This document shows positions 36,183-56,647 of a stretch of DNA of 64,000 nt, piece by piece. The position numbers and the translations under genes were made by a program. The DNA is taken from assembly GCA_009773665.1 (NCBI GenBank), contig WSYE01000004.1, positions 52,456 to 116,455 on the forward strand, given 5' to 3'. Positions within the stretch are counted from its first letter, which is position 1. Each line of letters starts with the position of its first letter. The notes under the pieces are model-generated. The model saw only the letters and a program-made list of their open reading frames with translations, made no database searches and had not been told where the DNA came from. The stretch is from Desulfovibrionaceae bacterium (lineage in GTDB: Bacteria; Desulfobacterota; Desulfovibrionia; Desulfovibrionales; Desulfovibrionaceae).

Positions 36183-36812
36183 TTGGGAGAGGTGGTCATA
36201 GTGGGAATTGGAGCTTTCAGGACAACGGCGGACATCGTGCTGGCCTCAGGCTCGCCCAGGAGAAAAGAGCTGCTTGGGTCCACGGGCGTGGAGTTCAGGA
36301 TCGTGGTCTCCGGCGTGGACGAACCCGCTGCCGATGCCGGGGAAACGCCCGGTGGCTACGCCCTGCGCATGGCGCGCATGAAGACCTTGGACGTGGCCGC
36401 GTCCTGCGCCGGAGCGTATGTTTTGGGCGCGGACACCGTGGTTGCCGTGGGGGACTTCATCCTCGGCAAGCCTGTGGATGTGGACGATGCGAAGCGCATG
36501 CTGTCCATGCTCTCCGGACGTGAGCACACTGTGGTCACGGCCTGTTGTCTGGTCGGTCCGGAGGGAGAGGCAATATGGGAAGAGGCCCTGGCCTCGAAAG
36601 TTACTTTCGCCACACTGACCGAAGAAGCCATTGCCGCCTACGTGGCCACGGGCGAGCCCATGGACAAGGCTGGCGGCTACGCCATCCAGGGCCTGGGAGC
36701 GTTCATGATCGCCCGCGTGGAGGGGTCGTACACGAATGTTGTCGGGTTGCCCCTGGCTGAAGTGGTGGATGTCCTGAAGCGCAACGGGGGTATCGTTCCT
36801 AGAGAACGCTGA
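36183..36812 (+). CDS. maf: Maf family nucleotide pyrophosphatase (C-terminus apparently replaced by the adjacent insertion)
   Basis: 'IVLASGSPRRKELLGSTGVEF', 'YVLGADTVVAVGDFILGKPVD', 'GYAIQGLGAFMIARVEGSYTNVVGLPLAEV'. Confidence 0.93.
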   Translation: MGEVVIVGIGAFRTTADIVLASGSPRRKELLGSTGVEFRIVVSGVDEPAADAGETPGGYALRMARMKTLDVAASCAGAYVLGADTVVAVGDFILGKPVDVDDAKRMLSMLSGREHTVVTACCLVGPEGEAIWEEALASKVTFATLTEEAIAAYVATGEPMDKAGGYAIQGLGAFMIARVEGSYTNVVGLPLAEVVDVLKRNGGIVPRER

Positions 36813-38808
36813 ACAATCCCCACGCGGAGCAACGGGGTCAAGACGTGTCGAGGAATTATTTTCATACCGAGCTTTACAAGAAATACGAGAGAAGATAAAA
36901 GTAATTCGAAATAACTAATAAATATCGAGAAATACAAATGGCACGCATCAAGACGATTGAAATTCACAACATAAAAGGCATCAAACAATTAAAGCTAGAT
37001 TTGGATCTAATTCCTAACAAGCCAAGCCTATTTGTCGCCTCCAATGGATTTGGAAAGACATCGTTTGCAACTGCATTTAATTCTTTGAATAGAAACAGAA
37101 TTAATCTCAACGAAAATGACCTCCACGAACAACTCGAAACCAACAAACCACTGATATCCATTGAATATTCCGAAGACAACCGAGCAGTAACGATATACAA
37201 CGCAACAGAAAGTTCAAACGGAATATACAGCGAGTTTGATGTCCAGGTCATCAGAAACACGCTGGAATCCAAACATACCAAAAAAAACATGGGCGGTTTC
37301 ACCCATGTCAGTTCACATATCTGCATTCCTCCGATTACCCTCATTGACAGAATCCCAAAAAAACAAACACCTAGATACTCATGCCTAGCCGTTAGGCAAT
37401 CATTCGGGAAAAATGGAAAAATCCTTCCAAACATATCCGGGGAGATAAACAACCCCAACATTATTTTTCAAATCGGTTCACAAGTTGATATGGGGAAATT
37501 ATTACAAGTAAGATCAACCAGAGCCATTGAAAAATTCAAGGAAGAAGCAAATAAATTAAGTGGCAGCACGGCTGACATGACAAGAACCTTGAACGGCAGT
37601 CATATCAGCCTACTGAGTGACATCGAACCATTGACAAAAATTGTCGAAATTTTAAAAAACAATGGCATAAACCGCACCATTGAAATCGAACACTACCTGT
37701 CCGCATTACAATTCTTCGAATCGTTTAAGATAGAGCCACGCGAATTCAAGACCTATGTCGAATACTGCAACCATGTAATTCATGAACAACACCTGAAGAC
37801 TTTTTTCAACGCACTTAATCCCACCTGGAAGAACATTAGACCTACAAAAGAGAAAGACAAACTCATTCTCCACTTTCCAGAAGCCACACACATATCGAAC
37901 GGCGAACGGGATATACTGTGTTTTATCGCAAAACTATTAATTGCCAAAAATAAACTAAACAAAAGTAAGTGCATCCTAATAATTGACGAGATATTTGACT
38001 ACTTAGACGATGCGAACTTAATTTCCGCACAATACTACTTATCGAGAATGATTCAAGAATACAAAGAAGACGGCCGACAACTTTATCCAATCATATTGAC
38101 ACACTTAAACCCTCTTTATTTCAAAAGCTACCGCTTTAAAGATCAGAAAGTTTATTACCTTGAAAGAAAACCAATTTCATTTGACAAGAAAGTGTTCAAT
38201 GTCATCTTAAAAAGAGAGGAAGAAAGAATAAGAGACGCCATTGGAACATTTTATCTTCACCACCACTCAAGCGACATAAACTTGACCGCTGAATTTGCAG
38301 CACTTGGTCTTGACCCTAGCCTTTCTACAGCAAATTCATTCAAACGCTACATTTCTAACCAACTCACTGAGTACTTGAATGGAAATAGATATGATCCCGC
38401 ATCTGTTTGTTGCGCATTAAGGATTAGCATTGAAGAAATTGTTTTCAATGCCTTGGATTCTGCTCATTACGCAGACTTCCTTGACACACATGGCACAACC
38501 CCAAAATTAGAATTTGCCGAATCCAAAGGAATCAACATACCTGAAACGTTCCACCTTCTCGGAGTTATATATAACGAAGCAATGCATTTTCGTTATCCAA
38601 ACCAAGACTACGCCACACCCTTATTTTCAAAATTAGACAACTCAACCATCCGGCACATGATCAATGAAGCGTGCTCGTGTATATTGTAAGTCTTCTACAA
38701 CTCGAAGCATAACATCCAATACTTCCTATCAATTTATTGGACTGGCTCACACAAGCTCACATCAGCTGAAGTCATGGAAATCCTGAAGCGCAACGGGGTT
38801 ATCGTTCC
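36756..38808 (+). mobile_element. ~2.0-kb AT-rich insertion bounded by 44-bp imperfect direct repeats of the maf 3' end
   Basis: Repeats 36756..36799 and 38765..38808 are 39/44 identical by hand alignment, with an 18-nt perfect block tcctgaagcgcaacgggg; interior has visibly lower GC than both flanks. Confidence 0.75.
36938..38689 (+). CDS. SMC/ABC-type AAA ATPase with unassigned C-terminal domain (candidate single-gene defence protein)
   Basis: Walker A 'FVASNGFGKTSFATAF', signature 'HISNGERDILCFIAK', Walker B 'CILIIDEIFDYLDDANL', H-loop 'PIILTHLNPLYF'; ~130-aa C-terminal helical region. Confidence 0.85.
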   Translation: MARIKTIEIHNIKGIKQLKLDLDLIPNKPSLFVASNGFGKTSFATAFNSLNRNRINLNENDLHEQLETNKPLISIEYSEDNRAVTIYNATESSNGIYSEFDVQVIRNTLESKHTKKNMGGFTHVSSHICIPPITLIDRIPKKQTPRYSCLAVRQSFGKNGKILPNISGEINNPNIIFQIGSQVDMGKLLQVRSTRAIEKFKEEANKLSGSTADMTRTLNGSHISLLSDIEPLTKIVEILKNNGINRTIEIEHYLSALQFFESFKIEPREFKTYVEYCNHVIHEQHLKTFFNALNPTWKNIRPTKEKDKLILHFPEATHISNGERDILCFIAKLLIAKNKLNKSKCILIIDEIFDYLDDANLISAQYYLSRMIQEYKEDGRQLYPIILTHLNPLYFKSYRFKDQKVYYLERKPISFDKKVFNVILKREEERIRDAIGTFYLHHHSSDINLTAEFAALGLDPSLSTANSFKRYISNQLTEYLNGNRYDPASVCCALRISIEEIVFNALDSAHYADFLDTHGTTPKLEFAESKGINIPETFHLLGVIYNEAMHFRYPNQDYATPLFSKLDNSTIRHMINEACSCIL

Positions 38809-56236: not shown

Positions 56237-56647
56237 TCACTCTGTGTCCGGTTTGCTGGAGTGTTGTCCTTGATATAGTGGCATTGGCATATTTTTGTAT
56301 TTTGCTTCGTAAATTTCGAGTTCTTCGCACGCAGTAATGTTAGCATATTTGGCATTTCCGCTTTTCTTTTCTTCACATATTTTCCTTATCCATGCCAATT
56401 CCTGCGCAAACAGCACACATGGATCTTGTTTTAAAGTACTGACTCCGAGTTTATATTTCTCACAGGCAATCTGCATAAACCATATTTGTTTAGCATTTTC
56501 CTCAGGAATCATCGGCCCGTACCATTTTTTAAGATCATTGGTACCTCCGGTATGGATCATGTCGGCCATGCCGCAGCCGAAATTCAGTGACAATAGCAAT
56601 ATCGCCAATAATCTGTATATATTATTGGGCATCGTCAGCAACTCCAA
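56237..56647 (-). CDS. Hypothetical small lipoprotein in an AT-rich patch
   Basis: 'MPNNIYRLLAILLLSLNFGCGMADM' lipobox-like; lower GC than surroundings. Confidence 0.5.
   Translation of the reverse strand: MELLTMPNNIYRLLAILLLSLNFGCGMADMIHTGGTNDLKKWYGPMIPEENAKQIWFMQIACEKYKLGVSTLKQDPCVLFAQELAWIRKICEEKKSGNAKYANITACEELEIYEAKYKNMPMPLYQGQHSSKPDTE

Follow-up and report, generated by a model that had tools for sequence, protein, structure and literature searches.

The window, that is the whole 64,000-nucleotide stretch of DNA analysed here, carries a 583-aa protein that is probably an abortive-infection RNase of the ABC-HEPN kind, acquired horizontally and belonging to a new lineage, for which we infer nuclease activity and a tRNA target. 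Relatives found within restriction operons and prophages make it a probable, so far unlisted, cousin of PrrC and RloC, the phage-defence proteins that cut tRNA. The ABC-HEPN kind is known; what is new is a compact, uncatalogued family found across four types of restriction/modification locus and also as a single-gene insert. If this reading is true, the tRNA-cutting defence ATPases gain a compact family of ABC-HEPN proteins that Pfam, NCBIfam and PADLOC have all missed.

An intact gene encoding an ABC head

The gene (36938..38689, on the + strand like all the features located below) is an intact open reading frame from ATG to TAA, with a GC content of 38.5% against 64% for the window. It is coding beyond doubt, since full-length homologs of 29–41% identity exist in several phyla. 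A promoter scan gave a result no better than chance.

The ABC motifs that had been described preliminarily are all confirmed, and in order, including the Walker B/D-loop ILIIDEIFDYLDD (345–358), T388-H-L and S320-N-G-E/Q-R-D. Walker A (AxNGFGKTS, residues 34–42; 37037..37063) has an alanine at the consensus first glycine throughout the family, the pattern being A34-P/S-N-G-F-G-K-S/T. The ABC signature ISNGERD (residues 319–325; 37892..37912) is conserved as SNG(Q/E)RD, and the H-loop THLNP (residues 388–392; 38099..38113) as THL(N/D)P, in 16/16 homologs; between them lie Walker B and the D-loop, CILIIDEIFDYLDD, at residues 345–358 (37970..38011). The span from Walker A to the signature is indeed short, about 280 aa in the window protein, with no zinc-hook motif within it, and CXXC is absent in 15/16 members. 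One solitary homolog (L059 933–2693), a gene of 32% GC in a contig of ~60% GC, has APNGFRKSS as its Walker A, with an arginine at the Gly39 position, which is either an inactivated ATPase or a sequencing error.

The AlphaFold2 model of the whole window protein has a pLDDT of 76. When this model is compared with known structures, residues 1–411 match the heads of SMC, Rad50, retron PtuA and GajA, with SMC and Rad50 on top, and this part is an SMC/Rad50/PtuA-like ABC head. Pfam, NCBIfam and PADLOC detect this ABC part alone: SMC_N and RecF profiles match weakly in Pfam and NCBIfam, with scores under the curated cut-offs, and none of the three collections holds a full-length model for the window protein. 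The PADLOC check proposed in the preliminary description detected the ABC part, by the PtuA profile and over residues 3–121 only, and no full-length model. Searches of the PDB, by phmmer and by profiles, returned chance or Walker-A matches only.

The weak SMC_N and RecF profiles and the top rank of SMC and Rad50 heads would fit an ordinary SMC-like or RecF-type DNA-repair ATPase. We consider this very improbable, as the profile scores are under curated cut-offs, the distribution is sporadic, low-GC and mobile with copies in defence operons, and the conserved extra domain described below is missing from repair ATPases. Among defence proteins, PtuA (Septu, retron Eco7/Ec78) and OLD/GajA share the ABC head, by profile and by structure. 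The effector of PtuA is, however, a separate HNH protein, PtuB, and that of OLD/GajA a TOPRIM domain, whereas the window family has a fused all-helical tail. No TOPRIM (OLD/Gabija/PARIS) is fused or adjacent to the window protein, its C-terminal domain being helical and its neighbours being maf and a gene for a 326-aa protein, and no PtuB-like HNH gene (Septu) is present, the 2.0-kb insert that carries the gene being without a second gene.

A HEPN-like domain with an invariant triad

The matches to ABC heads stop at about residue 411, so that the tail, residues 418–583 (38189..38686), lies outside the ATPase. Modelled alone by AlphaFold2, from an alignment with six homologs, it gives an all-helical domain with a pLDDT of 92.1 and a pTM of 0.87. 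When this model is compared with solved structures by VIA-align, each of the first 12 matches is a HEPN toxin, a HEPN-like partner of an NTase or MtlR, with Z of 5.9–4.3 and rmsd of 3.4–4.3 across 95–111 residues, and unrelated folds have Z of at most 3.5. We take the matches ranked 13 and 14, the Roquin ROQ domain and Cas13b, to be HEPN-containing as well. For helical bundles such Z values are no more than suggestive, but a list as uniform as this one would hardly arise by chance. Foldseek returned no significant match to the domain in the PDB or BFVD; the TetR-like rows in its output were dismissed as helical-bundle noise. The model supports, with moderate confidence in view of the Foldseek outcome, a resemblance to the HEPN superfamily fold; Z values around 6 can also reflect a common arrangement of helical bundles. 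The preliminary description of a helical, HEPN-resembling C-terminus is thus upheld, as a separate domain whose nearest solved folds by VIA-align are HEPN.

In this domain, 13 of the 166 columns are invariant among the 16 sequences, and they include Arg495 and Glu499 (Arg495-X3-Glu499; 38420..38434) and His550 (38585..38587), all three invariant in 16/16. Their spacing is R-X3-E-X50-H in the window protein and R-X3-E-X50-52-H across all 16. These residues lie in the two segments, 'ALR..IEE' and 'YNEAMH', that had been singled out from the start. In RloC, the motif R-X3-E-X36-52-H corresponds to Arg320-Glu324-His356 of PrrC, and each residue is required for RloC activity and toxicity (PMC2610378); the nuclease domains of PrrC and RloC both belong to the HEPN superfamily according to a survey of it (PMC3710099). 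The C-terminal domain of the window protein matches the PrrC/RloC triad pattern, R-X3-E-X31-52-H, and RloC-like proteins of host relatives have the same triad with a spacing of X37-42. Arg495, Glu499 and His550 are therefore proposed as a putative RNase active site of the PrrC/RloC type.

The canonical HEPN motif Rx4-6H is absent, as had been stated, residues 540–550 being LLGVIYNEAMH with no arginine preceding His550. It was nevertheless the wrong motif to look for: the doubt that its absence had cast on a nuclease is answered by another signature, R-X3-E-Xn-H, which is present. This corrects a search habit: R-X3-E...H offers a means of recognising HEPN nucleases that have no Rx4-6H. The HEPN protein of the type IX retron (retron-Kva2) likewise lacks the canonical motif, and its proposed site is made of a His and an Arg distant in sequence, at the dimer interface (PMC13405049); it differs from the window family in being a separate small protein under RT-msDNA control, and not attached to an ABC head. 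The HEPN toxins (HEPN-MNT/MntA-HepT, SO_3166) and MtlR, which are the best structural matches of the C-terminal domain, differ from the family, which is without Rx4-6H and without an MNT antitoxin and is fused to an ABC ATPase. Four other residues of the domain, Arg426, His441, Lys523 and Lys565, likewise do not vary among the 16 sequences; they are candidate RNA-binding or additional catalytic residues, and could form an alternative active site to R495/E499/H550.

Relation to PrrC and RloC

The window family shares with RloC a Rad50-like ABC head followed by a C-terminal R-X3-E-Xn-H domain, and RloC too is self-contained and often not linked to R-M genes. It differs from RloC in having no zinc-hook coiled-coil insert, in being shorter (~580 aa against 724–799 aa for the RloC-like controls), and in its triad, with a spacing at the top of the range (X50-52 against X36-52) and NxxxH in place of Ser-His. 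With PrrC, the partner of the EcoprrI type I R-M system, it shares an architecture of ABC plus anticodon nuclease (ACNase) without a long coiled coil. Some homologs also lie in R-M operons, of type I in L061 and of type III in L038; the match to the PrrC profile is, however, non-significant and the window copy is not R-M-linked.

It is possible, though we would not favour it, that these proteins belong within PrrC/RloC (AAA_13) itself and have merely diverged, a filing question that would leave the mechanism the same. Architecture, triad and, for some homologs, R-M linkage are common to both, and hhalign aligns the signature, Walker B and H-loop, and these only, with the RloC-like controls at a probability of 89.9%. 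On the other side, neither the window protein nor any of the 10 members scanned matches Pfam AAA_13, whereas the controls, RloC-like proteins and the ABC ATPase of an APEC O1 prophage, do so with E of 1e-111 to 1e-170. The window protein has no PADLOC PrrC or PDC-S06 match either, whereas the RloC-like controls are recognised as both, and the C-terminal domains are not significantly alignable: the profile of this domain reaches E 0.13 against the local RloC-like proteins, with R-X3-E in register. Another candidate identity, the APECO1_4465 prophage ABC-HEPN group (PMC3710099), was rejected, as APECO1_RS04465, an ABC ATPase which a P2-like prophage in APEC O1 encodes and which was assumed to be APECO1_4465, is an AAA_13 protein without a match to the family; its own triad is R-X3-E-X39-H.

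No description of the family was found in the main texts of the literature searched.

A sparse family in defence and mobile loci

The 16 aligned full-length homologs, which are 29–41% identical to the window protein, form a coherent but sparse family, hosted by Desulfovibrio-like bacteria, Bacteroidota, Bacillota and Rhizobiaceae. They include a Mucilaginibacter relative found by genome scan (37% identity), three plasmid relatives found by tblastn (Brochothrix, Sinorhizobium and Agrobacterium), five viral-contig relatives (30–41% identical) and six further ones from sets of 395 and 300 Bacteroidota genomes. The viral-contig relatives were found by scanning with alignments as queries, single queries returning little, and their number was unchanged with larger alignments. 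The gene is present in 1/198 of the host relatives and in 3/395 and 5/300 Bacteroidota genomes; neither these 198 nor a set of 395 genomes from the host phylum contained a second full-length member, and the phage records searched gave no match. The GC content of the gene is below that of its surroundings in 16/16 loci. In the family tree, whose branches are long and whose deep support is weak, the window copy is closest to two prophage copies. Low GC, sparse hosts and tree together form the pattern of a mobile, sparsely retained gene.

At four loci the family gene is part of a tight operon, together with genes of type I R-M (L061), type III R-M (L038), BREX (L040) or a C5 methyltransferase (L035). 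In L040, GmrSD, PglZ, BrxL and Mrr (BREX) are followed by the family gene with a 1-nt overlap; in L038, GmrSD and the type III mod and res genes are followed by two small genes, the family gene and a resolvase. Both loci belong to IMG/VR, which is no proof of viral origin. In L061, the genes for AbiEii, HsdR, HsdM, HsdS, a DUF4145/MtlR-like protein, a 164-aa protein and the family protein follow one another on one strand throughout, and L035 has genes for a recombinase and a C5 methyltransferase and a small gene that overlaps the start of the family gene. Elsewhere the gene is near a DNA methyltransferase (L060), on a plasmid with R-M-like genes and a recombinase (L033), near TIR proteins (L034), or adjacent or close to a phage integrase, in company with genes for phage primase, terminase or tail proteins (L036, L037 and L039). 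The phage context is partly by construction, as the viral-contig loci were drawn from a viral collection, a bias that does not affect the loci on plasmids and in genomes. The copies of the window, L059 and L064 are solitary, and no defence gene adjoins that of the window. The preliminary proposal of a self-contained, one-gene effector hence holds for the window copy and some others and not for the whole family, which is not always autonomous since R-M or BREX operons include several of the homologs. The two ways in which that proposal was said to be open to failure, a C-terminus that is part of the ATPase or a non-toxin domain and homologs outside any defence or mobile context, have both fallen away, since the C-terminus is separate with HEPN as its nearest folds and the homologs lie in defence and mobile contexts.

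The tight operons with DNA-modification systems, the missing Rx4-6H and the presence among the structural matches of MtlR, whose HEPN family is non-catalytic at least in part, could all be explained if the C-terminal domain were, like MtlR, a non-catalytic module for RNA or protein binding or for dimerisation, and the protein a DNA-sensing or regulatory ATPase of R-M or BREX systems. This seems unlikely to us, given the invariance in 16/16 of a polar triad matching the one proven by experiment for PrrC and RloC, when so few columns of the domain are invariant, and the persistence of partnerless copies.

If the protein is instead an abortive-infection RNase, as we favour, the ABC head (1–411) would keep the HEPN-like RNase (418–583) inactive in uninfected cells, and infection would alter the ligand of the head, for which DNA ends, a nucleotide and a restriction complex that has been disturbed are candidates. 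An ATP-dependent rearrangement of the head dimer would then join two HEPN domains, and Arg495, Glu499 and His550 would cleave RNA without a metal, the likeliest target being the anticodon loop of tRNA, as for PrrC and RloC; translation would halt, which might protect against phages. Where the gene belongs to an R-M or BREX operon, its product would stand guard over that system, much as PrrC does over EcoprrI, and stand-alone copies, including that of the window, would act like RloC. An effector directed at mRNA or rRNA instead of tRNA, in the manner of the RnlA/LsoA-type HEPN toxins, is conceivable but less probable: the targets of HEPN RNases are very diverse (PMC3710099) and nothing in the sequence fixes the substrate, but the ABC-HEPN proteins of known activity, PrrC and RloC, whose triad matches, are anticodon nucleases (PMC2610378). 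Since closely related copies occur both in operons, with four kinds of restriction/modification genes, and on their own, the family offers a direct test of whether PrrC-like guards sense DNA itself or the disturbance of a restriction enzyme.

Two further observations concern possible partners. DUF4145/MtlR-like (HEPN-type) and 164-aa, Pfam-less proteins are encoded upstream of the ABC-HEPN gene in two Bacteroidota genomes (L061 10164–10709 and 9659–10150; L062 815–1653), and are possible partners or antitoxins. The window's own genome also encodes a protein with a strong N6_Mtase match, type I HsdM-like (G000:C48:28696–29700); that it acts as a partner in trans of the window protein is speculation.

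Insertion at the 3' end of maf

The gene lies alone in a low-GC insert of about 2.0 kb, bounded by two imperfect 44-bp direct repeats that are 89% identical and 2009 bp apart. The left copy (36756..36799) is at the 3' end of maf (36183..36812; Pfam Maf, E 9.6e-61) and the right copy (38765..38808) continues into the native maf terminus. Both contain an exact 18-bp core (36772–36789 and 38781–38798) that occurs nowhere else in the genome. In a sister genome (G003, L058) the site is empty, with maf directly abutting the next gene; in the window, the downstream neighbour of the insert encodes the 326-aa protein, which has no significant Pfam match. Compared with this empty site, the left copy changes at the core from host-like to foreign sequence and the right copy from foreign to host-like, indicating that maf has acquired a new C-terminus, its native 3' end being replaced by one borne by the insert. 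An integrase was sought within the insert and is absent. The picture left is that of a site-specific (or very-short-homology) integration of an element with its own maf 3' end and att-like repeats.

Taken as a whole, the reading that the family is a lineage of its own, uncatalogued so far, of anticodon-type nucleases of the ABC-HEPN kind is tentative, somewhat short of an even chance. On this reading, it would act as a guard in restriction systems that differ in mechanism (type I, type III, BREX and C5 methylation) and also travel as an integrase-less, one-gene cassette that uses an att-like site to enter maf at its 3' end.

The same maf 3' end carries an 11.9-kb island in another genome of the same order (G025; L069, G025:C16:247500–264000), with genes for a SNF2/DrmD-like helicase, a type III methyltransferase and restriction enzyme and a SoFic-like Fic protein, and bounded by a 300-nt maf duplication of 93% identity (L069 1622–1921 and 13501–13800). 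These two cases, though no proof, point to the 3' end of maf as a possible hotspot at which defence genes land repeatedly.

Just downstream of maf in a further genome (G021; L073 1957–3414), a truncated pgpA, a low-GC 155-aa gene and an intact pgpA form another single-gene insertion with a duplicated flank, whose 155-aa product is DinB-type-like by eye. The window itself contains a second low-GC open reading frame (56240–56647; 41% GC, 136 aa), which is possibly a foreign gene.
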